Assembly (NCBI GenBank): GCA_007693595.1
Contig: REDI01000082.1
Span: forward strand, 1-64,000
DNA: 64,000 nucleotides
Source of the DNA: Deltaproteobacteria bacterium
Lineage (GTDB): Bacteria; Myxococcota_A; UBA796; GCA-2862545
Direction of reading: 5' to 3'
This document shows, one piece after another, positions 2,177 through 50,111 of this stretch; the stretch's first letter is position 1, and every line of letters begins with the position of its first letter. A program made the translations under genes and the position numbers. Below the pieces are notes generated by a model. That model worked only from the letters and a program-made list of their open reading frames with translations, searched no databases and was not told where the DNA came from.

Positions 2177-3550
2177 GTGAACAAGAACACTTATCTCCCC
2201 GTCTTCGCTCTCGGAGGTCTCTTCGCTGCCGTCGGCGTCGGCGCGATCCTCTTCTTCCCGCCGAGCCCACCCTCCGGTGAGATCGAGCCCCGAACCATCG
2301 ATCGCGCGTCTTCCAAGGCGAGCGAGAAGGCTGCCCCCGCGTCTCCCCAGACCGAGCGCGTCGCCCAAGCACCCGCCCCATCCAAGGACGATCCGGTCCC
2401 GACCAAGGTCGACGAGAGCGACTACCGCGTCCTGGACAGTGGCCTGAAGATCGCGGATCTTGAGGTCGGCCAAGGTGCCAGCCCCGTCGAAGGACAGATG
2501 GTCAAAGTCCACTACTCAGGCTGGCTCGCCTCGGATGGCTCCCTGTTCGACAGCTCGGTGAAGCGCGGTGTGCCCGCCGAGTTCAGCCTCGTACGCGGGG
2601 GCCTGATCGAAGGCTGGATCGTCGGCCTCGCCGACATGAAGGTGGGGGGCAAGCGCCAACTCATCATTCCGCCGGAGCTGGCCTACGGCGACCAAGGCCA
2701 AAGCAAAATTCCGGCCAACAGCACGCTCATCTTCGACATCGAGCTGCTCGAGCTCGGCGAGGTCCGCCGGGTACCCGACCTGCCCGATCAGGACTGGTCC
2801 GAGGCGCGGGAGCTGGACGATGGGGTCAAGGTGGTCGTCCTCACCCAGGGCGAGGGCCCGGCGGTCCAAGAGCGGTCGGTCGTCCGAACGGAGCTCACCC
2901 TGTGGACCTCCGAAGGCAAGCTCTTCGCCTCAACCTACCAAGGGCGCGGCCCCCGCTCCGCTGCGACCTTCCTCAAGGGGGCGCCACCGCCGGCAGGCGA
3001 GCCCCTCCCCGGCCTCGGGATCGCGCTATCGGACATGAAGGCCGGAGAGAGCCGGCTCGCCCTGCTCCCCCCCAAGACCGCCTTCGGCGACCAGAACCTA
3101 CCCGCGAACGTACCTCCGAACGACACGATCACCGCTCAGATCGACCTCCTCGACGTCGGAGCACCCCGCGTTCCGCCCAGCGCTCCTCCCAAGGTCGATC
3201 CCAGCGCCTTGGTCACGACGGACAGCGGATTGCAGTACGCAGAGCTCGAGGAAGGCGAAGGGACTCCCCCGTCCGAGAGCGCCGTCGTCGAGGTCGATTT
3301 CACGGGCTGGACCCCGGAGGGCGTGGTGGTGGAGTCGTCGATGAACCAGGCGAACGCCGTCACCTTCATGATCTCGCGCACGCCGATCATGCCCGCTTGG
3401 AAGGAGGCCCTCTCCACCATGAAGCCCGGTGGACGTCGTCTCCTCGTGGTTCCGCCTGAGCTTGGTTACGGTCCGCAGGGCCGCGGCGACATTCCTGGCG
3501 ACGTCCCGCTCACCTACGTGCTGGAGCTCCGAGAAGTCAAGCGACCGTAG
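2177..3550 (+). CDS. Membrane-anchored protein with three tandem FKBP-type PPIase domains
   Basis: 457 residues. I chose the GTG at 2177 because GGAG lies 7 nt upstream and the protein then begins with an N-terminal membrane segment (residues about 6-27) followed by a Pro/Ala/Lys linker to residue 80. Domain 1 (about 83-190) keeps the FKBP active-site set: 'VHYSGW', 'FDSS', 'GLIEGW', 'LAYGDQG' and 'IPANSTLIFDIELL'. Domain 2 (about 205-325) has lost most of these. Domain 3 (about 345-457) is intermediate ('VDFTGW', 'PAWKEAL', 'LGYGPQG'). Domain 1 is the likely active prolyl isomerase and the others may bind clients. The anchor suggests work on exported proteins on the outer face of the inner membrane. 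Confidence 0.9.
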   Translation: MNKNTYLPVFALGGLFAAVGVGAILFFPPSPPSGEIEPRTIDRASSKASEKAAPASPQTERVAQAPAPSKDDPVPTKVDESDYRVLDSGLKIADLEVGQGASPVEGQMVKVHYSGWLASDGSLFDSSVKRGVPAEFSLVRGGLIEGWIVGLADMKVGGKRQLIIPPELAYGDQGQSKIPANSTLIFDIELLELGEVRRVPDLPDQDWSEARELDDGVKVVVLTQGEGPAVQERSVVRTELTLWTSEGKLFASTYQGRGPRSAATFLKGAPPPAGEPLPGLGIALSDMKAGESRLALLPPKTAFGDQNLPANVPPNDTITAQIDLLDVGAPRVPPSAPPKVDPSALVTTDSGLQYAELEEGEGTPPSESAVVEVDFTGWTPEGVVVESSMNQANAVTFMISRTPIMPAWKEALSTMKPGGRRLLVVPPELGYGPQGRGDIPGDVPLTYVLELREVKRP

Positions 3551-17081: not shown

Positions 17082-18761
17082 ATGCAGACTATGAGCCCTG
17101 GGGAGCCATTCGGCCCCTTCACCATCGAAGGATTCGTCGCCGGAGGCGGCATGGGGCAGGTCTATGCCGCAACCCACTCCGTCTACGGCCACCCTGCCGC
17201 GCTCAAAGTCCTGCATGAACGCTTCCACGACGACCCCCGCTGGCACCGGCGCTTCAGCGAAGAGGGTCTGCTGGGCATGCAGCTCAAGCACCCCAACATC
17301 CTCTCGGCCAGGGAGCTCCTCGAGCACAAGGGTCGGCTCGCCCTCGTGATGGATCTGGTGAGCGGAGGCCAGAACCTTCTCCGCGTCATCGAGCGCGACT
17401 GGCCCACCGGGCTCTCCCTGAGTCACGCGCTCACGATCTTCCTTCGGGTCATCGCCGGCGTCGAATACCTGCACGAGCGCAAGATCGTCCACGGCGACCT
17501 CAAGCCCGAGAACGTCCTCATCGACGGACCGCTCCGGGAGCCCGCGAGCTGGGCACCGCGCGTGACCGACTTCGGCACGGTCTCCCTGATCGCGGACCCC
17601 GTGCAGATCCGAGGTCGGTCCGCCGTCGTCGCGAGCCCCCGCTACGCCTCCCCCGAGCACCTGGCAGGCGTCGACCAGATCCTTGACGGCAGCGATGTCT
17701 ACGCCCTGGGTCTGATCCTTCACTTCTTGCTCTCGGGCAAGCATGCCTCGGGGGCGCGCACCGTCGAAGAGGCCGCGGAGCAGGTCAAGGGGCCCGTCTC
17801 GCTCGTACACATCGTCGACCAACCCGACCCTCTCCTCGAGATCTTCAAGCGCGCCACCCAGCCCGATCCCAACGAACGCTACGAGAGCTGCCGAGCGCTC
17901 GCCCTCGCGATCCGCGACGTGCTCGATGAGCTCGGGCTAGGCCTGCGCCTCGACGACCTTCAATCCGAACTCGCCACCGAAGTGGTCGAGGAGCGCGCCC
18001 GTGCCCAGCGCGCCCTTCACGAAGGAGGCGCCGATCCCAAGGACGACTCCGACATCACCCTGGGCGAGCCGTTGCGCGGCGACACCTCCGAGCACACCCT
18101 CGACGTCCACCTCGACGACGACGCCTCGTCGCCCTCCGAGGCCGCGGCAGATGCCCTGCCCGGACCGGCCCCCACCCTGCCGCCGCGCCCTCCCCTGGAC
18201 ACCCCCACCCTCGACGAAGGCGCCGAGGAGCCCGCAGGTGCACCGGCCGCCGACGGTGCCCTCCCCCCCTCCGACGACCCGGCCGAGTCCCCTGACGAGT
18301 CGGAAGAGCCCGACGAGCCTAGCGCGAGCGATGCCATCCACAGCGGACCCCCTGCAGAGCTCGACGGGGAAGCGGACGAGCCCGAGCCCGAGCCTCGAGC
18401 CGACGCCCCACTGCCAGCCACCGAGCCCACGCCGCCCACGCCGCCCGACACGGCCCCCATCGACGAGGAACCCTTCCAAGACGGCCATCGTCCGCTCTCG
18501 TCGGCCGCCACCATCACCAACGAGACCGAGAACTCGAGCCTGCGCGCCGCCACCACCGTTCCCACCGACAACGATCTCGCCCCGACCAGCAAGCCCGTCT
18601 CGGATGCAGCGACCCGCCCCGCGGCCCAGCCCAGGGTCGCCTCCCCCGACGATGCGAAAGGGCCGCCAAGCGGGCTGGTGATCGCCATCCTGGTCGGAAC
18701 CGGGGCAGCGCTCGGGCTGCTCTCGGTGGTCCTGCTGTGGCTGCTCGGTATCTGGCCTTGA
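17082..18761 (+). CDS. Tail-anchored Hanks-type Ser/Thr protein kinase (HGD-type)
   Basis: 559 residues. Kinase domain about 12-290: Gly-rich loop 'VAGGGMGQVY', catalytic-strand Lys in 'AALKVL', catalytic loop 'HGDLKPEN', 'DFG' at about 165 and 'SPEH' in the activation segment. The loop has Gly instead of Arg (HGD, not HRD), so this is a non-RD kinase, probably not controlled by activation-loop phosphorylation. Residues 330-525 are a disordered, acidic, Pro/Asp/Glu-rich linker, and a single C-terminal membrane helix (about 530-556, 'LVIAILVGTGAALGLLSVVL') anchors it, with the kinase facing the cytoplasm. It stops 9 nt from the convergent ettA. Confidence 0.9.
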   Translation: MQTMSPGEPFGPFTIEGFVAGGGMGQVYAATHSVYGHPAALKVLHERFHDDPRWHRRFSEEGLLGMQLKHPNILSARELLEHKGRLALVMDLVSGGQNLLRVIERDWPTGLSLSHALTIFLRVIAGVEYLHERKIVHGDLKPENVLIDGPLREPASWAPRVTDFGTVSLIADPVQIRGRSAVVASPRYASPEHLAGVDQILDGSDVYALGLILHFLLSGKHASGARTVEEAAEQVKGPVSLVHIVDQPDPLLEIFKRATQPDPNERYESCRALALAIRDVLDELGLGLRLDDLQSELATEVVEERARAQRALHEGGADPKDDSDITLGEPLRGDTSEHTLDVHLDDDASSPSEAAADALPGPAPTLPPRPPLDTPTLDEGAEEPAGAPAADGALPPSDDPAESPDESEEPDEPSASDAIHSGPPAELDGEADEPEPEPRADAPLPATEPTPPTPPDTAPIDEEPFQDGHRPLSSAATITNETENSSLRAATTVPTDNDLAPTSKPVSDAATRPAAQPRVASPDDAKGPPSGLVIAILVGTGAALGLLSVVLLWLLGIWP

Positions 18762-24430: not shown

Positions 24431-25189
24431 ATGGTTCCCAGCACGACCGAGACGCTCTTCGATCTCGGGTGTGGCGCCCGTGTGGTCGGCTGTACTCGCT
24501 TCTGCGTCCGGCCCGCGGATCGGGTGCGAGGGCTGCCCAAGATCGGGGGCACCAAAGACGTCGAGGTCGACAGAGTGCGCGCGCTCTCCCCCGACCTGAT
24601 CTTCGGAAACTGCGAAGAGAACACGAGGGAGATCTTCGAAGCGTTGGAGCCCATCGCGCCGCTGTGGGCCCCCCTGCCTCGCACCGTCGACGAGGCGCTG
24701 CTCGATCTACGAGTGACGGGTAGGCTCGTCGACCAGGTTGAGCGGGCCGAAAGTTGGTCCTGCCGGATCCGCCAGGCGCGAGAACGCCTTCACGCCGCGC
24801 GAACGGAGCCGTTCACCTACGCTTACCTCATCTGGCGCGATCCCTACATGAGCGTCAGCGACGACACCTTCATCGCCTCGATGCTGTCGGAGCTCGGGGG
24901 CGTCAACGCCTTCGCTCACCACCCCGTCCGCTTCCCCACCGTGACCGCCGACCAGCTTGGTGCCCTCGCTCCCGATCGCGTGCTGCTCTCGTCCGAGCCC
25001 TTCCCCTTCAGGGACCGTCACCGCTCCGAGCTGTGCGAAGCCTCCGGGCTCCCCCCCGATCGGGTGCGATTCATCGACGGGGAGCTCGCGTCGTGGCACG
25101 GCACCCGCATGGCGCGCGCCTTTGAGGCCTTCGCCACGCTACTGCGCGACGGCTTCCCGACGCACCCCATCACGAGGTCACGTCGATGA
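24431..25189 (+). CDS. Periplasmic-binding-protein-like metal/cobalamin receptor (BtuF/FecB fold)
   Basis: 252 residues from the ATG at 24431. Homologous sequence ('GRTLRLDRPPQRILSM') continues upstream of it in frame, so the true start may be the GTG at 24281, which would overlap the upstream gene by 85 nt. The N-terminal signature 'PSTTETLFDLGCGARVVGCTRFCVRP' and later 'PDLIFGNCEENTREIFEALE' and 'FPTVTADQLGALAPDRVLLSSEPFPF' match the helical-backbone receptor family of cobalamin and ferric-siderophore binders. There is no signal peptide and no ABC partner nearby, so a stand-alone or cytosolic role is possible. Its 3' end overlaps the convergent pseudokinase gene by 20 nt. Confidence 0.8.
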   Translation: MVPSTTETLFDLGCGARVVGCTRFCVRPADRVRGLPKIGGTKDVEVDRVRALSPDLIFGNCEENTREIFEALEPIAPLWAPLPRTVDEALLDLRVTGRLVDQVERAESWSCRIRQARERLHAARTEPFTYAYLIWRDPYMSVSDDTFIASMLSELGGVNAFAHHPVRFPTVTADQLGALAPDRVLLSSEPFPFRDRHRSELCEASGLPPDRVRFIDGELASWHGTRMARAFEAFATLLRDGFPTHPITRSRR

Positions 25190-26747
25190 CCATCACCGTG
25201 ACGTTGTCTTTTCCGCCGACATCGAGCGCGCCCTGCACGAGCTTCTGCACGCAGCGGCGGGGCTCACTCCAGTTGTCGAGCTCCCAGCGGATCTCTTGAT
25301 CCGAGAGCTCCGCCCAGAGACCATCGGTACAGATGAGCCACCGATCCCCCCGAAGCGTGCGGACCACCTCGACGTCGATGTCGACGAACTCCTCTTGGCC
25401 CACGAAGTTGAGTAAGACGTTGGCCTTGGGGTGCGTGCGCGCCTCGGCGGGCTTGACGGTTCCACGCTCAACCATGGCTTGCACGAGGCTGTGGTCCTCG
25501 GTAACCCGGCGCAAGGTAGGGCCACGACGAAGGTAGATCCGTGTGTCCCCCGCGTGTGCGACGTAAGCGTGCCCGCCGGTCGCGAGCAGCAGGATCGCCA
25601 GCGTACACCCCATCTGCGTGCCCTTCTTGGCGTTGAAGCCGACGAGGAGCTCATTCGCCGAGGCGATGGCGTCGGTGACGGCTCTCTTCAGGGCATCTTC
25701 GCTGGTCGTACCCGTCTCGAGGCTGTCCTGGAGGCTGTCGAGGACCCGGTTCACCGCGACCTTGGCCGCGACGGCGCCGCCGGTCTGGCCGCCGAGCCCA
25801 TCGGCGACGACATAGGCGGTGGCGTTGCCGTCAAGTCGCCTCCATCCCCAGGCATCTTCGTTCGTCGCCCGGGCCAACCCCACGTCGCTCAGGCCCGCGT
25901 GGGTGGGCTCCTCAACCGCGCTCACGAGCTTGGGATAGAACTGCTCAATCCCCGCACACAGACGCTTCGGGGGGCCATGGTGACCCTCGACGCCCGCTCG
26001 GAGGAAGCGCACCAGCTCCAGATCGCCCGGGTCGGCGAGGCGCAGAAGCAGCGAGCAGAGCGTTCGTACATCTTCGAAGATCGGGCGGTCCGGGTGCCGC
26101 GCGAGGGCGGAGGCGCCGAGGACCTCGAGCGCTTCGAGATCGGTAAACCGCGGCGAGCGATCCGGCATGATCACGACATTGGCCAGGGTGAAGGGTGCGA
26201 GCCGCACCCCGGCCTCGTGGATGACCCCCAACGCCGTAGACAGCCTATGCAGGATCGGCACGAGCACCGGACCCGGGAGCGGGCCGGGCTGGTCGATCAA
26301 GAGGGACTCGCCGTAGTAGGGAAAGACCGTCACGGGGAGGCCATCGCGATAGAACGCGGCGACCGCGGTCGCGATCGCGGCATGCTCAAGCCTGAGCTTG
26401 AGCCAGGACTCCCAGCCGCCCGTGCTCGTATCGTGGCGAACACTCGCCAAGAAGCGCTGCTCTCGGAGCGGTGTGCCGCAGTAGGAGCAGGCCTGGGCCA
26501 CGTTCGGGTTGTACCGATTGCCGCAGTGCCAGCACTTCTTGTGGGCCCACAAGGGGTCTACGTTGTTCGCCAGATAGAGCTGACGGCCCTCGACGACTCG
26601 AACCAGCCGCTCGATCCGAAGATGCTGACCGAGCGCCGTGCCCTTGCGGAGTGGCAGAGGGTGCTCGAGCTTGACCCCCTCGGGGATCTGCCCTCGGGCG
26701 AGGGTGCCTGCTCCAATGGCTTCGAGCTTGGTGGGCTGCACGGTCAC
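25170..26747 (-). CDS. Pseudokinase / PP2C-type phosphatase fusion with zinc ribbon
   Basis: 525 residues from a GTG that overlaps the upstream methyltransferase stop (GTGA). Residues about 70-95 carry a double CxxC zinc ribbon (CWHC...CSYC). Residues 40-280 resemble a Hanks kinase that has lost the glycine loop, the catalytic Asp ('RLAPFTLANVV' in place of HRDLKPENI) and DFG ('DLE'). Residues 290-522 are a PP2C/Stp1 domain: 'GLARATNEDAWGW', 'VADGLGGQTGG', 'HAGDTRIYLRRG', 'TEDHSLVQAMVERG', 'ICTDGLWAELSD' and 'KDNVTVMVI'. The metal-binding Asp residues look intact, so it should dephosphorylate Ser/Thr substrates. The pseudokinase may regulate or target it. Confidence 0.88.
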   Translation of the reverse strand: MTVQPTKLEAIGAGTLARGQIPEGVKLEHPLPLRKGTALGQHLRIERLVRVVEGRQLYLANNVDPLWAHKKCWHCGNRYNPNVAQACSYCGTPLREQRFLASVRHDTSTGGWESWLKLRLEHAAIATAVAAFYRDGLPVTVFPYYGESLLIDQPGPLPGPVLVPILHRLSTALGVIHEAGVRLAPFTLANVVIMPDRSPRFTDLEALEVLGASALARHPDRPIFEDVRTLCSLLLRLADPGDLELVRFLRAGVEGHHGPPKRLCAGIEQFYPKLVSAVEEPTHAGLSDVGLARATNEDAWGWRRLDGNATAYVVADGLGGQTGGAVAAKVAVNRVLDSLQDSLETGTTSEDALKRAVTDAIASANELLVGFNAKKGTQMGCTLAILLLATGGHAYVAHAGDTRIYLRRGPTLRRVTEDHSLVQAMVERGTVKPAEARTHPKANVLLNFVGQEEFVDIDVEVVRTLRGDRWLICTDGLWAELSDQEIRWELDNWSEPRRCVQKLVQGALDVGGKDNVTVMVIDVTS

Positions 26748-28321
26748 AATACCTCGACGGGACGGAGAAGAGCGTGTCGATCGAGCCAGGCGAGCCGGGT
26801 GGGGAGCTCGCGGCGGAGCACATCGCGCGCCTCGTTCGCCGTGGCAGCTTGCCCGTCGTGGAGCCTAAGCACCAGCCCCCCCCGCTCTACCTCGCGTTCC
26901 AGGCCCGTTAGCAGCTCCTCACGATCCCGTGTGCCATCGCACAATGCGAGCAGCGCGCGGTCGATGGGGTCGAGACGCACCACCTCGTGCCGGCGGTTGC
27001 TCACCCCCCAGGGGCAGCCGACCCTCGCTTGCAGCAGCGCCACACTGAAGGCCTTCGGACGGTCCGCCGAATCGCCGCCGAGTCGGATCGGGTGGGGCCA
27101 GAGCTCGGCCAGATCGCGCGCGAAGGCCTGGAGCAGGGCCGGCCCGAGCGTGGACTCGAGATCGTCGATCGGTTCGACCCCTGCGGCGGCGAGACGCTGC
27201 CCCGACAGCTCGACCCAAGACGCGAAGGACAAGGGCTCGGGGTGGTGCTCTTGAAACACGGTCCAGCCTGCCTTGATCGCGCGGTGATCGGACTGCAGCT
27301 CACGGGGTCCCGCTCGAAAGGTCAGCGGTACGCCCTGCGTCAGGTCCAGGGACGCTTGGTCGGAGCGCAGATCGCTGCTCACGAAGAGGTCTCGTAGAGA
27401 GGTCCACTCGAGGGTCCGCTCGATCGGTGCGTCCGCCCGAACCAGCAAGCTCCGACGAAAGGCGCGGTTCAAGACGAAGTCGAGATACTGCTGCGCACGC
27501 ACCAACTCATCGCTGAGCCCATCGAGCACCGATCTCACGCGTTCGGGAAGATCGAGGGTCATCATGTCGCAGAGCTCCGCCTCGCCCAGATAGGCGAGCC
27601 CGGCGTCTTGGGTCAGGCGGGCAAAGTCACGAAAGTAGATCGGGTCGTTGCGCGATGAGAGGTGGTCGTGAAATAGGTAGAAGTCACCCTTTTGTTCGAG
27701 CAATCGCTGCTCTTGGGCTAAGAAAGCGCCCCAAGGGTTGCGATCCGCCGGGACCGTGTCAGCCAGAAAACCAAGGATCGCTCTTGCCTGTTCCACGCGC
27801 CGCCCGGGCTCTTCGATGGCTTCGACGTGAAAGCGCATCGCGTCGCGAACCATACGCCTCATATGCCACCCCGGAAGCGTATTATAACTGATGTAGGCCA
27901 CCCCGTGACGCGAGAGCAGGCCGGCACAACGCTCCAGGAGCACATGGCGCAAATCCGGCTCGATCCATGAAAACACACCGTGGACGATGATGTAGTCGAA
28001 GGGGCCGTCCTCGGGGCTCAGATCCTCAAGACCACGCCGCTCGATGGTCATGTTGTCGAGGCCGAGCGCGAAGAGGACCTGCTGCCCCTCCCGGACGTGC
28101 TTGAGGACCGGGTCGATGCCCAGGAAGCTCGCCTTGGGGTGTTCCGCCGCCCGAGGGATCAGGTTGCCCCCCCCAGCACAGCCGATCTCCAGCACGCGCG
28201 CCCGCTCCGGGGGTGTGGGATCGAGTCCGAACAAGCCCGCAATCACCGACATCTTCGAGGGCATGGCCTGCTGGTGGGGCTGGCTCGGGTACGGGACCTG
28301 CTCATAGGCGTCGACAGACAC
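26744..28321 (-). CDS. SAM-dependent protein-methyltransferase-like protein (PKMT/regulatory-domain type)
   Basis: 525 residues from a GTG at 28321 with AGGAG 5 nt upstream. Residues about 35-160 are a Rossmann methyltransferase: motif I 'VLEIGCAGGGNLIP', 'FLGIDP' (acidic loop), 'FDYIIVHGVFSWI' and 'LLSRHGVAYISYNT'. Residues 170-410 match the methyltransferase regulatory domain found in rickettsial outer-membrane-protein lysine methyltransferases, and the C-terminus is a winged-helix-like part ('LDPIDRALLALCDGTRDREELL'). It probably methylates lysines or other side chains on a protein. Its stop overlaps the phosphatase fusion start by 4 bp, so the two are translationally coupled. Confidence 0.85.
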   Translation of the reverse strand: MSVDAYEQVPYPSQPHQQAMPSKMSVIAGLFGLDPTPPERARVLEIGCAGGGNLIPRAAEHPKASFLGIDPVLKHVREGQQVLFALGLDNMTIERRGLEDLSPEDGPFDYIIVHGVFSWIEPDLRHVLLERCAGLLSRHGVAYISYNTLPGWHMRRMVRDAMRFHVEAIEEPGRRVEQARAILGFLADTVPADRNPWGAFLAQEQRLLEQKGDFYLFHDHLSSRNDPIYFRDFARLTQDAGLAYLGEAELCDMMTLDLPERVRSVLDGLSDELVRAQQYLDFVLNRAFRRSLLVRADAPIERTLEWTSLRDLFVSSDLRSDQASLDLTQGVPLTFRAGPRELQSDHRAIKAGWTVFQEHHPEPLSFASWVELSGQRLAAAGVEPIDDLESTLGPALLQAFARDLAELWPHPIRLGGDSADRPKAFSVALLQARVGCPWGVSNRRHEVVRLDPIDRALLALCDGTRDREELLTGLEREVERGGLVLRLHDGQAATANEARDVLRRELPTRLAWLDRHALLRPVEVL

Positions 28322-29599: not shown

Positions 29600-30673
29600 A
29601 TGAGCCTGATCTCCGTCGTCATCCCGATCTATAATGAACGCGACAGCCTCGCCGAGCTGATCTCCAGGCTCCAGGCTGCGCTGCGCGAGGAGTCGGTCGA
29701 GCTCCTCTTCGTCGATGATGGCAGCACCGACGGGTCCGCGAAGCTCCTGCAGAGCCTCCAGCACACAGTGCCCGGACTTCGACTCGTCCAGCTCTCGAGA
29801 AACTTCGGCCACCAGCGCGCCATCACCGCTGGGCTCGACCTGGCGCGTGGTGACGCGGTCGTGGTGATGGATGGCGACCTGCAGGATCCTCCCGAGGTCG
29901 TCCCCGCTCTGATCGCCAAGTGGCGGGATGGCTTCGACGTCGTCTATGGCGTCCGAGCCACCCGCCGTGGCGAAGGGGTCGCGAAGCGCAGCCTCGCCTG
30001 GGCCTACTACCGCCTGCTCCAAGCCGCCTCGCCCCTGGACCTGCCCACGGATGCCGGGGACTTCAGGTTGCTCAGCCGGCGAGCGCTCATCGAAGTCCGA
30101 AAGCTACGAGAGCAAGCCCGCTATCTTCGAGGCATTACCTCGTGGATCGGCTTCCCCCAAGCCTCCGTGACCTTCGATCGCGCACCGCGTCGCGCGGGGA
30201 CCTCGGGCTACCCTTGGATGCAGTCCACCAGCCTGGCCCTCGACGGGCTGCTCTCCTTCTCTCCCTGGCCCCCAAGAATCCTCATGCTGAGCGGCGCGCT
30301 GGCCCTCCTGCTCGGCCTCGTCTGGGCCGGGATCGCCGTCGGACAACAGGCGGGCCTCTTCCCCGCCCCGTCGGTCCCGTCACCCGTCATCGCCCCGCTG
30401 ATCCTGTGCTCCAGCGGCGCCCAACTCCTCGGTCTGAGCCTGCTCGCGACCTATGCGCGGCGCATCCTCGACGAGGCCTTAGACCGCCCACTCTACGTCA
30501 TCGCCTCCGACCAATGCCCTGCACCAACCTTACAGAACCGTTCCATGGACCCCGGTGAGACCGCCGCTGCACCCAACCTCTCTGCTAAGGTAGCCCTGCC
30601 CACAAGGAGCGGGCCCCCATCCGGCGAGTCCGGCACCATGCAGGAGCAACCATTTCCACGCCCACCCCCATGA
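29600..30673 (+). CDS. Family 2 glycosyltransferase with C-terminal membrane helices (DPM1/GtrB-like)
   Basis: 357 residues. GT-A fold: 'SVVIPIYNERDSL', 'LFVDDGSTDGS', 'LSRNFGHQRAITAGL' and the DxD-type motif 'VVMDGDLQDPPE' at about residues 91-101. The 'RNFGHQ' and 'GDFRLL' motifs identify the polyprenyl-phosphate glycosyltransferase group (DPM1, ArnC, GtrB). Two membrane helices (about 235-260 and 275-300) follow, and a disordered tail ends the protein. It probably loads a sugar onto undecaprenyl phosphate for glycan or lipid modification. The stop overlaps the next start (ATGA), coupling it to the pseudokinase gene. Confidence 0.92.
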   Translation: MSLISVVIPIYNERDSLAELISRLQAALREESVELLFVDDGSTDGSAKLLQSLQHTVPGLRLVQLSRNFGHQRAITAGLDLARGDAVVVMDGDLQDPPEVVPALIAKWRDGFDVVYGVRATRRGEGVAKRSLAWAYYRLLQAASPLDLPTDAGDFRLLSRRALIEVRKLREQARYLRGITSWIGFPQASVTFDRAPRRAGTSGYPWMQSTSLALDGLLSFSPWPPRILMLSGALALLLGLVWAGIAVGQQAGLFPAPSVPSPVIAPLILCSSGAQLLGLSLLATYARRILDEALDRPLYVIASDQCPAPTLQNRSMDPGETAAAPNLSAKVALPTRSGPPSGESGTMQEQPFPRPPP

Positions 30674-31896
30674 TGCCCCGATTCGCCGAGGCCGACGCCT
30701 ACCTCGAGCGGGTCTACCTCGAGCGCTGGCGCTCTACCAAGATGATGAGCACCTCGCGGGCTCGCGCCGTCATGCACGCCGAGCCCATCGACGCTCCCGA
30801 CGACGGGGCTCATCCGGGGGCGACGGTCATCGTGGTGAAGTATGCCGATAACCTCGCTGATGTCGTCGATCGCGAGGCGCTCGAACGCGCCGAGGAGCTC
30901 GAGAGCGAGCACGTCCAATCTCTCCTGGGCCACGAGGAGCTCAACACAGGTGAGCACGTGCTCATCGTCCCTGCCGATGGATCCATGCAGTTCTCAACCC
31001 GCCTGCTGACCACGCCCCCGTCCATCGCAGAGCTCGTGGGATTGCTCGGCGACATCGCATGCGGACTCGCAGACATCACCGACCAAGGCGGGGTCTACGG
31101 TCCGCTGGCCCTCGATCACGTCCTGCTCACCACGAGCAAGGACGGCCACGACATCGCATGTATCCCCCCCGTTTGGTGGGCCTGGCGCCATGGCCCTCAC
31201 GCCTCGTCCGCCCAAGCGTGGAGCTGCCCGACCCCAGGGGGCGACCCCAGCGTTCGCGCCGCCTGGTCGCTCGGCGCCATCGCCTGGCACGCGCTGACCG
31301 GCGCGCCGCCTACCTCGGTGCGATCGAACCCGCACCTGCGGGCGAAGCTGCCCGCTCGGATCCCCCACAGCCTCGCGCACGAGGTCGAAGAACTCCTCGC
31401 TTTGCCGCCTTCCGACGTCCCGATCGATCTGCGTCTCCTCGCCCAACGCCTGCGGACGCTCGCTGGAGATCTTGAAGAGAGCAACGTCTACATCGCGCCC
31501 CCCATGCTCTTGGGTACGCCCGTGCCCGCGGGCGAGCAGCTCCGTCCGCAAGACAGCGCCCTCCCCGTGCCTCCTCCTAAGCCGACCCCCAAGCCGGCGA
31601 TCCCTCGACCAAAACCGACCTTCGGCCTCACGGAGCAAGCCGAGGAGCAGCGAGCCGCCCAGGCCACGCCAGCCGACGCCTCAGAGCCCACGTCCAAGGC
31701 CAGAACACCCTCCACCGCTGCCGGCCCCGACGAGGAGCCAGAGCTCTTGGTCGACCCCGAGAAGGTCCGGGCCAGGCCCCCCGACGCTCGCGACGACGCG
31801 CAACAACCCAACGCCGCCTTGACCATCGGGCTGATCGTGGCCCTGGCCTTGGTGTTGTCGCTGCTGATCGCGTACCTCCTGGGTCTCCTGGCCTGA
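30670..31896 (+). CDS. Tail-anchored pseudokinase-like protein
   Basis: 408 residues, starting at the ATGATG that overlaps the glycosyltransferase stop. Residues about 40-270 have kinase-like secondary structure: 'LVGLLGDIACGLADITDQGGVYGPLALDHVLL' corresponds to the alphaE/catalytic-loop region, and 'RAAWSLGAIAWHALTGAPP' to the alphaF helix (normally SDVYALGxxLYELLTG). No Gly-rich loop, catalytic Asp or DFG remains. A Pro/Lys-rich linker follows, and a single C-terminal membrane helix (about 380-405). Its layout is the same as the 17082-18761 kinase, so it is a tail-anchored degenerate member of that family. Confidence 0.75.
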   Translation: MMPRFAEADAYLERVYLERWRSTKMMSTSRARAVMHAEPIDAPDDGAHPGATVIVVKYADNLADVVDREALERAEELESEHVQSLLGHEELNTGEHVLIVPADGSMQFSTRLLTTPPSIAELVGLLGDIACGLADITDQGGVYGPLALDHVLLTTSKDGHDIACIPPVWWAWRHGPHASSAQAWSCPTPGGDPSVRAAWSLGAIAWHALTGAPPTSVRSNPHLRAKLPARIPHSLAHEVEELLALPPSDVPIDLRLLAQRLRTLAGDLEESNVYIAPPMLLGTPVPAGEQLRPQDSALPVPPPKPTPKPAIPRPKPTFGLTEQAEEQRAAQATPADASEPTSKARTPSTAAGPDEEPELLVDPEKVRARPPDARDDAQQPNAALTIGLIVALALVLSLLIAYLLGLLA

Positions 31897-45892: not shown

Positions 45893-48136
45893 TTAGGGCT
45901 GCGCGCCCGGCTCCAAGGCGACGACGTAGGTCCAAGGCACCGAGGTCAGCCGGCTCCACACGAAGAGCTCCCGGCTCACCGAGAGGAGCCCAGTCTCTTC
46001 GCCATCGACGATGCCCTGGACCACCCCCTCGACCTCGAAAGGCCTGGTGCCGAGCGAGAGGTTGTCGTGCAGGCCCGCGTCCATGCGCTTGCCGCGGTCT
46101 TCGGTGCTCACGATGATGTGACCGCGCTCGTCGAGCAGCCAGGCGTCTCGAGCCGACGGCATATCGAGCAGGGCGACCACCGTATCGAGCGACATATCGG
46201 CCCCCGCGACTCCGATGAACGTGCCGTCCGCCGCGTAGAGCGCCCGGTTGCTCGGCAGCAGGATCGAGAGCCCGGAGTCGTCGGGGTAGAGCTCCCCCCA
46301 CCGCGCGCCTCGGGTCTTCCGCGTCGATCGATACCACGGCCTCTTGCGAGGGTCGTAGTCATCGGAGAGGTCAGGAAATCCAGGATAGTTGATGAGCGGC
46401 CCCGACTCGAGCCCCACGTAGAGCCAGCGTACCGAGGTGGTCCGACCGCGCAGCAGGGCCTCTTGGCGCTCCGGGGAGAGCCCGATACCGTCCGCGCCGT
46501 AGCTCGCTAGCATCGCGGACCGAAAGACCCTCCGCAGCGGGGCGAGTCGCCCGATCTCTTCTTCGATGGGGCCCTCGTAGACCACCCCTGGCGGGACCAA
46601 GACCAGTGGATCCGAGAACGACATCTTGCGGCCGTAAGTCTCGGCCATCAGGTAGTCCACCGGGGGTTCGTCTCCGCGGTAGTCCGAGCGCCGATAGATC
46701 GGCACCGGCTGAGGGCGGGCGAAGGACCAGAGCTGCTCGGTGGAGCCCGCGAGCTGCTCCAACGCGGCCTCGACCCGTAGGAACTCGACGTCGATCTGGT
46801 GGCTGTGCGAGACCACCGAGGCGGTGAGCCCGGCGACACGCGCATGCTCGGAGGCAGCCCAAGCCATCGTACCCGAGACGGAGGCCACCGCCATCAGCAG
46901 GATGAAGGCCGCCGCGAGCAAGGCCCCCACCACCAAGCTCGCGAGGAGACCCGTGTGGCGGCTGCCCCACCGGCGCATGGCACGAAGCAGGTTGTCGGGG
47001 CGAGCCTTGATCTCGCGCTGCTGGAGATACCGACGCACGTCGTCGGCCAAGGAGAGCACGTCGGGGTAGCGCCGCGCGGGGCTCTGGGCGCAGGCCTTAT
47101 GGATGATCGCAGCCAGATCCTTGGGGACCCTTCGCCCATTGGCGTTCCGGAGCGGGCGTCGCTCCGCGGCCGCGGCGCGCAGCAAGGCCTCGGCGGGGGC
47201 GTCGGTGGTGATCGCACGCTCAAAGGTGACGATCTCTTGCAGGACCAAGCCCAGCGCATACTGATCGCTGAGGGGGGTGAGGGGTAGACCTCGAGCCTGC
47301 TCCGGGGCCATATACTGCGGCGTTCCGACCGCTCGGCCGGCCTCGCTCGCGCGCACCACCGTCGTCATCTCGGACGTACCCTCGACCTTGCGGAGGATCT
47401 CGGCGATCCCCCAGTCCATGATGGTCACCTCACCGAACGCGCCGACCATCAAGTTCTCGGGCTTGATGTCGCGATGCAGCACCCCACGCTCGTGGGCGTA
47501 GGCGATCCCCTCGCAGACCTTGACGAAGATCTCGAGTCGCCCCTCGAGGGTCTCGGCAGGCTCCATCGGCTTGCGCTGACGGGCCTTCTGCCTGGCGTCC
47601 CAGATGATCTCGCCGAGCGTACGGCCGTTGATCACCTTCATCGTGAAGGCCGGCTGGTCGTCGCGGGTTCGCTCTAGCGCGTGAACCGAGATGATATTGG
47701 GATGATCGAGCTGGGCCGTGATGCACGCCTCGCCCACGAAGCGGGCCGTCAGGGCCTCATGGGCCCCGTGCCGCAAGACCTTGACCGCGACGGTGCGGAG
47801 GAGGAGCTTGTCGCGCGCCAGCAAGACTGTACCCATGCCGCCCTGCCCGAGCTCGGCGAGCAGCTCATACCGACGCTCCAAGGGCTCGCGGCTGGGGAGC
47901 TTGGGCTTGGCCCGGCCGGGCTGCACCGGACGCGCGCTGTGCACCTCGCAGAGCTGGCGCAGCGAGAGCACCCCCTCTCGCTTGAGGGTCGCGAGGAAGC
48001 GGTCGATATCGCGCGGGTTTCCCTTGCGCACCCAGGCATCGTAGCGCTCGACGAGATCGGTGACCCCCATACGATCGAGGGTCGCCGCATCGATTCGCAG
48101 CCGCTCCGGCAGCTCACCTTGGTGACGCGCGCGCAT
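45893..48136 (-). CDS. Ser/Thr protein kinase with Cache-like extracytoplasmic sensor
   Basis: 747 residues from the ATG at 48136, GGAGG 4 nt upstream. Residues 1-90 are a helical N-terminal extension. Kinase domain about 90-385: 'LGQGGMGTVLLARD', 'VAVKVL', 'HRDIKPENLM' (RD kinase), 'MDWG' for DFG and 'APEQ'. A membrane helix at about 410-435 leads to an extracytoplasmic region of about 310 residues with Cache-type features ('YDPRKRPWYRSTRKTRGARWGELYPDD' pattern and 'FIGVAGADMSLDTVVALLD'). It is a transmembrane receptor kinase, and the Cache part should sense a small ligand. It ends 13 nt from the convergent permease gene. Confidence 0.93.
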   Translation of the reverse strand: MRARHQGELPERLRIDAATLDRMGVTDLVERYDAWVRKGNPRDIDRFLATLKREGVLSLRQLCEVHSARPVQPGRAKPKLPSREPLERRYELLAELGQGGMGTVLLARDKLLLRTVAVKVLRHGAHEALTARFVGEACITAQLDHPNIISVHALERTRDDQPAFTMKVINGRTLGEIIWDARQKARQRKPMEPAETLEGRLEIFVKVCEGIAYAHERGVLHRDIKPENLMVGAFGEVTIMDWGIAEILRKVEGTSEMTTVVRASEAGRAVGTPQYMAPEQARGLPLTPLSDQYALGLVLQEIVTFERAITTDAPAEALLRAAAAERRPLRNANGRRVPKDLAAIIHKACAQSPARRYPDVLSLADDVRRYLQQREIKARPDNLLRAMRRWGSRHTGLLASLVVGALLAAAFILLMAVASVSGTMAWAASEHARVAGLTASVVSHSHQIDVEFLRVEAALEQLAGSTEQLWSFARPQPVPIYRRSDYRGDEPPVDYLMAETYGRKMSFSDPLVLVPPGVVYEGPIEEEIGRLAPLRRVFRSAMLASYGADGIGLSPERQEALLRGRTTSVRWLYVGLESGPLINYPGFPDLSDDYDPRKRPWYRSTRKTRGARWGELYPDDSGLSILLPSNRALYAADGTFIGVAGADMSLDTVVALLDMPSARDAWLLDERGHIIVSTEDRGKRMDAGLHDNLSLGTRPFEVEGVVQGIVDGEETGLLSVSRELFVWSRLTSVPWTYVVALEPGAQP

Positions 48137-48284: not shown

Positions 48285-50111
48285 CTACGGCGCGATCTCG
48301 ACGTTGAGGGCAGCCCCCGTCACCGAGGGCTTGAAGCGAAGCTTTCGCGCGGCCCGCCTGAGACAATAATCCAGAGCGCTTCCTTTCTTTTCACCCACGA
48401 GCCCCTCCGCGACGACCGTGCCATCGGGCACGATGACGAGCGCCATCTTCTGGGGACGGTCCATGCCTACATCCTCGATGCAGGCTCGGGTCTCGGGTAA
48501 GCGAGAGAGCTGGTTGGACATCCCGGCGGTGGAGGGGCGCATCGGCAGCCCCCGAGGATCGACTCCCCCCTCGAAGCTACGCCACTCCCCTTGCTGGAAA
48601 GACCAGATCCGTCGCGTTGTCTCGCCGGGGCTGAGCTTGACCGAAAAGGTTCGCTTGCGATCCCCCGAGGCCTGGATCTCGACCTTGTAGGTCCCTGGCT
48701 CAAGGCGACGCACCAAGGGACTACTGCGGATTAGCTCGCCATCCAGGAAGATCTTTGCGGGGACATCCGCAGCTACTACCAGCTTCGTCTCGCCGTCGGA
48801 GCGCGTCACCGTCTGGCGAGGCTGGCGGACGGGGGCGGGGGGATCGGGCTCCACAGGGGGCTCTTGCAGGGCAACTTCGGCAATCTCGACCTCTTCGACC
48901 TCGGGGAGCTCTTCGAGGAGCACATCGCCGAGGCGGAACGTGGGTGCCGGCTCTACCGGCTCGACCGACCCCCAGCCATCGCCCGACCGTCCGGCCCCAA
49001 ACCAAAGGACGATCCCTCCGATCACTAGCGTTAGCAGAAAGGTGATCCCGAACGCCAACACCGCCCCCGCGCTCCCGAGCACCAGCCCGACCGTGCGACG
49101 TCGGCGCACCCCGGTCGAGGTCAGGCTGCCCTCGGGGAGGGTCTCGACCTCGTGAAGGTCCTGGTAGGACGGCGGCTCGCCGGGTAGGGCCACATCGAGA
49201 GGGAGATCGGGGCGCTTCCTGGAACCCGTCGGGGCCGCCCCCAGGGCCGTCGCCTCGTCGCTCTGTCGATCCGCCCACAGGGTCTGGGTCTCAAACACCC
49301 GGCGCCACTCCGAGAAAGGGGGCCCTCGGTGCGCTGGATCGGGCTGGGTGGCGCCCCTGACGAGCTCCCGCACGCCCCGCGAGACCCCCTCGCCGGGATC
49401 GAGGGGCTCGATCTTGAGCTTAGCTCGTAGGATCTGCACCGAACGCTGGTGATCGCGCACGTCGGGCTTGCGCGGGTAGGTCAGCTCCCCCCGGAGGCAC
49501 TCGCACAGGACCTGGCCCAGCGCGTAGAGATCGCAGAGCGCAGGGTCGAGCTGCACGCCATCGCGGAGCTGTTCGGGGGCCGCGTAGGCGATCGTGCCGG
49601 GAACGACCCCGTCTTGAGTGAGGCGTTCCTGACCTTCTTGGACGGCGATCCCGAAGTCGAGCAGGACCGGCGCGCCGTCTGCTTGCAGCATAAGGTTGGC
49701 CGGCTTGAGGTCGCGGTGGAAGACCCCCCGCCCGTGGGCGTAGGCCAGCCCATCGGCGAGGGTCGCGAAGATCTCGTCGATCCGATGCCGAGGAAAGGTT
49801 CCCCGGGTGATCAGGCGGTCAAAGTCGTCGCCCTCGACCAACTCCATGGCGAGGAAGGGCAGCTCGGTGGCCGCGTCGGTGCCGAAGCCGGTGATGCGCA
49901 CGATGGCGGGGTGCCGTAGGGCGTGAAGGGCCTCGGCCTCGCGGATGAAGCGCTCTCGCTCGCCGGGGATCCCGGACGGCTCCAGCACCTTGACCGCAGC
50001 CTCGATGCGCTCGGAGAGGCTGTGGCGGCAACGATACACCGATCCCATGCCCCCGTGGCCCAGGGGGCGTAGGATCCGCCAGTCTCCAATGGTGTCGCCT
50101 GGACTCAGCAC
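48285..50111 (-). CDS. Ser/Thr protein kinase with membrane helix, PEGA-like and TonB-C-like domains
   Basis: 608 residues from a GTG. Kinase domain about 10-275: 'LGHGGMGSVYRC', 'AAVKVL', 'HRDLKPANLM', 'LDFGIAV' and 'AAPEQ' are all intact. One membrane helix at about 335-360. Outside lie a Glu/Pro-rich stretch, a PEGA-like module (about 430-490, 'VPAKIFLDGELIRSSPLVRRLEPGTYKVEIQ') and a C-terminal TonB/AgmX-PglI-like domain (about 525-608, 'VIVPDGTVVAEGL...CLRRAARKLRFKP'). The last is common on myxobacterial envelope proteins. It could couple outer-surface or periplasmic state to cytosolic phosphorylation. Confidence 0.92.
   Translation of the reverse strand: MLSPGDTIGDWRILRPLGHGGMGSVYRCRHSLSERIEAAVKVLEPSGIPGERERFIREAEALHALRHPAIVRITGFGTDAATELPFLAMELVEGDDFDRLITRGTFPRHRIDEIFATLADGLAYAHGRGVFHRDLKPANLMLQADGAPVLLDFGIAVQEGQERLTQDGVVPGTIAYAAPEQLRDGVQLDPALCDLYALGQVLCECLRGELTYPRKPDVRDHQRSVQILRAKLKIEPLDPGEGVSRGVRELVRGATQPDPAHRGPPFSEWRRVFETQTLWADRQSDEATALGAAPTGSRKRPDLPLDVALPGEPPSYQDLHEVETLPEGSLTSTGVRRRRTVGLVLGSAGAVLAFGITFLLTLVIGGIVLWFGAGRSGDGWGSVEPVEPAPTFRLGDVLLEELPEVEEVEIAEVALQEPPVEPDPPAPVRQPRQTVTRSDGETKLVVAADVPAKIFLDGELIRSSPLVRRLEPGTYKVEIQASGDRKRTFSVKLSPGETTRRIWSFQQGEWRSFEGGVDPRGLPMRPSTAGMSNQLSRLPETRACIEDVGMDRPQKMALVIVPDGTVVAEGLVGEKKGSALDYCLRRAARKLRFKPSVTGAALNVEIAP

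Follow-up and report, generated by a model that had tools for sequence, protein, structure and literature searches.

The locus raises the question of whether a protein-lysine methyltransferase and a phosphatase fused to a dead kinase, whose genes share four nucleotides, form one regulatory unit or are separate enzymes encoded side by side. The window, that is, the whole 64,000-nucleotide stretch analysed here (G000:C36:1-64000), comes from a genome of 4.9 Mb in 97 contigs. A preliminary description had assigned the two products to the rickettsial OMP-lysine-methyltransferase type and to a PP2C phosphatase with a dead kinase and a zinc ribbon, and all of these assignments hold (Pfam, phmmer, predicted kinase fold and motif losses). 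The GTGA that was said to join the genes is likewise confirmed, with both reading frames present and the TGA stop overlapping the GTG start (Table 1). The reading that we favour, with a probability of roughly 0.6, is that two separate protein-modifying enzymes, an OM PKMT lysine methylase and a PP2C most likely regulated by its dead kinase, are made from one message and coupled in this genus.

Table 1. Coordinates of the paired genes and their domains in the window
Feature	Position	Strand	Evidence
Protein-lysine methyltransferase, OM PKMT family, 525 aa, GTG start	26744..28321	-	Pfam, phmmer, AdoMet residues
Rossmann AdoMet-binding domain, residues ~40-145	27887..28204	-	Methyltransf_25, 40.9 bits
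MethyTransf_Reg domain, residues 215-295	27437..27679	-	PF10119, E 4e-21
PKMT C-terminal winged-helix domain, residues 420-518	26768..27064	-	PF21782, E 5.3e-19
GTGA overlap, methyltransferase stop TGA and phosphatase start GTG	26744..26747	-	Sequence; the sister species has ATGA (L064, 7811-7814)
Phosphatase with pseudokinase, zinc ribbon and PP2C, 525 aa, GTG start	25170..26747	-	Pfam, structure, alignments
Pseudokinase domain, residues ~36-279	25911..26642	-	AlphaFold2 model, motif losses
Zinc ribbon, residues 71-95 (C72, C75, C87, C90)	26463..26537	-	Zn_Ribbon_1 match, conserved cysteines
PP2C (PPM) Ser/Thr phosphatase domain, residues 281-525	25173..25907	-	PP2C_2, E 1.1e-18

RBS-like sequences precede both GTG starts, AGGAG that of the methyltransferase and GAGG that of the phosphatase. 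By a simple gene caller, overlaps of exactly 4 nt occur in 7 of the 32 same-strand neighbour pairs of the 64-kb window and in 46/297 such pairs across all loci examined. Because such overlaps are common among same-strand neighbours, the overlap alone is weak evidence, and its ordinariness speaks for the view that the adjacency arose as a neutral accident in the gene order of one genus and that the two enzymes have unrelated roles, a reading to which we give somewhat less than even odds. The translational coupling proposed earlier is plausible, and a four-nucleotide ATGA is retained in the sister species (G001), but it has to be set against the 7/32 frequency in the window. Through such coupled translation the methyltransferase and the phosphatase may be co-expressed.

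The OM PKMT family is widespread among Gram-negative bacteria (PMC11784438), and the window methyltransferase, judged on its sequence, is an ordinary member that is probably active as a protein-lysine methylase. Its domain order of methyltransferase, MethyTransf_Reg and PKMT winged helix is that of the OM PKMT lysine methyltransferases, and both PKMT-specific Pfam models match above their curated cut-offs (MethyTransf_Reg 76 bits, PKMT_2nd 69 bits). The closest solved relative is PKMT1 of R. prowazekii (5dnk; phmmer E 7.7e-76, residues 5-507), followed by rickettsial PKMT2 (5doo; phmmer E 1.5e-68). Likeness to these two enzymes and to KmtA of Acinetobacter takes in full-length similarity, the MethyTransf_Reg and winged-helix domains, and the Asp and His that bind AdoMet. 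D70 and H114 align with the AdoMet-binding Asp102 and His146 of RpPKMT1 (PMC11784438), and the two positions are near-invariant (20/20 and 19/20) among homologues having residues there. Recognition of OmpB by RpPKMT1 includes Leu103 and Ile130 (PMC11784438), whereas the alignment places Pro71 and Leu98 at these positions in the window methyltransferase. KmtA likewise lacks equivalents of both residues, and the changes seen here resemble those reported for it (PMC11784438); since KmtA lacks both, Leu103 and Ile130 are a trait of rickettsial substrate recognition and not of the whole family. Elsewhere in both genomes of the genus, a second PKMT-like methyltransferase gene adjoins a FabG-like dehydrogenase gene (L083:9003-11211, L100:413-2673), and a related genome carries tandem PKMT-like methyltransferases with a 4-nt overlap (L094:8228-11241).

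The C-terminal half of the partner protein is probably an active phosphatase. Its predicted model matches tPphA (2xzv) with a Foldseek E of 6e-23 and a VIA Z of 35, and the NED, ADG, GD, DG and DN residues of PP2C, including the metal-binding Asp, are invariant in 21 sequences; activity is predicted because the metal ligands are invariant. tPphA, PstP and Stp1 share the PP2C fold and all metal ligands, but they either consist of a single domain or are membrane proteins, and they lack a pseudokinase; the Stp1/IreP PP2C equivalog model NF033484 gives 192.9 bits, under its curated cut-off of 230. The window also encodes three Ser/Thr kinases of Hanks type (17091-18761, 45893-48136 and 48285-50048), all matching Pkinase strongly and one with a Cache-type sensor domain, which are possible partners of the phosphatase.

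The N-terminal half has a predicted bilobal protein kinase fold that sequence models hardly register. Pfam calls no kinase in this half of the window protein, and among the 21 family members Pkinase matches appear in 14 at E values up to 1. This half was folded separately because a fold search with the whole-protein model listed PP2C chains only. Modelled alone by AlphaFold2 it reached a pLDDT of 89, with VIA Z scores of 17.3 to PknI, 17.0 to PknB and 16.2 to the kinase-homology domain of Rv3910. Losses among the VAIK Lys, the HRD Asp and the DFG motif are seen at motif level, with positions assigned from the sequence and the order of the strands rather than from a superposition of coordinates, and at that level the kinase-like half is dead. 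The zinc ribbon (CxxC-11-CxxC) is inserted between N-lobe strands beta2 (55-61) and beta3 (98-104) in the model; its Zn_Ribbon_1 match (E 8e-5) lies under the curated cut-off, and of 21 relatives at least 90% keep its cysteines. It is very improbable that this half is still an enzyme, whether through residual kinase activity or as an unusual transferase of the SelO or SidJ sort. Nucleotide binding is conceivable, given an invariant Asp203 in the D-L-D/E that occupies the DFG position, an invariant Arg104 at the beta3 position and an Asn190 that is mostly retained, and an arginine-assisted mode of ATP binding has been suggested for other pseudokinases of bacteria (PMC12599244). Against an enzyme, the alignment of 21 members has lost the glycine loop, lacks the beta3 Lys throughout, and varies at the HRD Asp position (P, R, G, D, W and others; Pro185 in the window protein). 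The pseudokinase and its ribbon would most likely act as a docking or gating module for the phosphatase. A bacterial pseudokinase fold (Z 16.2) is shared with mycobacterial MviN (Rv3910), whose structure, solved together with an FHA protein, illustrates how a pseudokinase can dock a partner (3oun title), although in MviN the pseudokinase is fused to a membrane transporter-like protein and has neither zinc ribbon nor phosphatase.

The pseudokinase-PP2C family is order-wide. Strong matches to a profile of the N-terminal half were found in about 60 of the 63 order genomes (all but G011, G029 and G055), and a single genome from a different order of the class has one too. Among the matches listed for the rest of the phylum all are weak, most of them covering the profile's middle, and these are taken to be ordinary kinases. 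Because the family is kept in about 60/63 order genomes, the dead kinase appears to be under selection. A tree resolves two phosphatase clades in family f1, one order-wide and one family-specific that includes the window protein. The order-wide paralog (L063:9153-10592; L220, G001:C506) is without the zinc ribbon in both genomes of the genus, and the methyltransferase-linked copy keeps it, a pattern that fits specialisation. Outside the phylum, the zinc-ribbon PP2Cs of Chloroflexota and Poribacteria (L111, L123, L181) also have a ribbon aligned at beta2-beta3 of a kinase-like region before the PP2C domain, but identity is only 26-28%, and in two of these proteins there is an additional N-terminal ribbon or a long tail. 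The cyanobacterial PRK14559 (NF011149) proteins resemble the window protein in combining a zinc ribbon with a degenerate kinase-like middle and a C-terminal PP2C, whereas their ribbons are N-terminal and outside the N-lobe; the model scores 90.1 bits against the window protein (cut-off 374), on the PP2C part only. A contig scan by PP2C motifs returned mostly unrelated PP2Cs, and tblastn against a plasmid collection found no plasmid-borne relatives of the pseudokinase. Membership in a defence system was rejected, the PADLOC matches covering nothing beyond generic stretches of PP2C and methyltransferase. In a review from 2025 of pseudokinase families in bacteria (ActPs1-3, GLW, CP1, DYD and DLHK), a word search of the text met 'phosphatase' a single time, in the title of a reference, and 'zinc' nowhere (PMC12599244). 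The published surveys examined list the parts, and the combination of ribbon, pseudokinase and PP2C is not described there.

The pairing with the methyltransferase has a far narrower distribution. The methyltransferase family occurs in 15 of the 63 order genomes, and the two genes are adjacent in 2/63, the window genome (G000) and G001 of the same genus; the pair is a feature at the level of the genus. It recurs in one further genome, and at this frequency it comes close to being found only here, the outcome that the preliminary description named as counting against its reading; its standing as a general system was rejected by order-wide searches with both genes. The G001 phosphatase (L064) shares 54% identity with that of the window, and the contig ends inside the methyltransferase gene, whose fragment is 38% identical over the aligned part. 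Trees place both G001 genes with the window genes (100/100 and 96/88), and the pair persists with its overlap despite this divergence. Both genes are present but unlinked in six other genomes of the family (G013, G007, G009, G018, G012 and G014), and some family genomes have only one of the two. Co-occurrence of the family-clade phosphatase and the methyltransferase within the family was not significant (counts 6, 3, 4 and 8; Fisher p 0.20), and no shared neighbourhood of unpaired phosphatases or methyltransferases was seen in gene calls inspected by eye.

These patterns bear on the proposal of common control in the preliminary description. In one regulatory module of this kind, methylation and dephosphorylation would act on a single target, or the phosphatase would itself control the methyltransferase. 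The coupled start and stop retained by both species over considerable divergence, and a ribbon kept in the paired paralog and lost from the unpaired one, are what such a single module might leave behind. We nevertheless regard it as unlikely, since the pair is missing from the rest of the order, co-occurrence is not significant, and neither a shared domain nor a known precedent was found in the literature searched. A joint function is unproven because pairing is limited to two species of one genus, and a shared target or mutual modification of the two enzymes is speculation. The occurrence of the pair in 2/63 genomes only, and the separation of the genes in six other family genomes, also agree with the neutral accident considered above. 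On the other side, the overlap outlasted insertion or inversion of flanking genes, for which a neutral pair would have no need, although two genomes are a small sample.

The surrounding genes help to define what was kept. The gene 93 nt upstream of the pair encodes an alpha/beta hydrolase. In G001 the hydrolase and DUF1292 genes occur in the same order on another contig, in the opposite orientation relative to the GT2 gene next to them. Because of this change of orientation, the pair is the unit kept and not a larger operon; a four-gene operon with the hydrolase and DUF1292 genes was rejected on the reorientation and the separate contig. The nearby hydrolase would suit a PP2A-like methyl switch, with the methyltransferase and the hydrolase as methylase and demethylase of the phosphatase, but the chance of this is close to nil: the methyltransferase is of the lysine-methylating type, an esterase is unable to remove methyl-lysine, the phosphatase is a PP2C and not a PP2A, and the reoriented hydrolase-DUF1292 segment of G001 on its other contig led us to reject a methyl-esterase cycle. 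Two further genes of the window may be recorded. One (30670-31896, + strand) has a kinase-like look, a C-terminal membrane anchor and no Pfam match at E 0.01; it directly follows a glycosyltransferase gene with a 4-nt overlap, in a neighbourhood kept in G001 (L215). The other (2177-3550, + strand) encodes three consecutive FKBP-type prolyl isomerase domains.

Under the favoured reading of two separate enzymes from one message, the methyltransferase would probably add methyl groups to several lysines of a protein, which, to go by the enzyme's relatives, is perhaps destined for the cell surface. The soluble PP2C would remove the phosphate that Hanks-type kinases attach. Its catalytic half appears intact, and the N-terminal dead kinase with the ribbon in its N-lobe may dock a partner or gate the phosphatase. 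The two genes would have been brought together in this genus and kept as a translationally coupled pair, leading to co-expression.

The zinc-ribbon pseudokinase-PP2C family is the more interesting part of the locus than the gene pairing. A survey of bacterial PP2Cs counts zinc-ribbon and Pkinase fusions by Pfam labels (PMC12088040), whereas for the kinase half Pfam is silent in the window protein and weak in its relatives. Tentatively, and as a rather doubtful proposal in its full form, the pseudokinase with a ribbon in its N-lobe could be a sensor or docking switch for the fused PP2C, in an order-wide undescribed family that one genus has coupled to a lysine methyltransferase of surface proteins. 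If these phosphatases are shown to carry a conserved dead kinase with a ribbon inserted in it, this would offer a mechanism of regulation, open to testing, for an enzyme retained by about 95% of the order, and the link to the methyltransferase, if functional, would be a lead to joint control of lysine methylation and phosphorylation.
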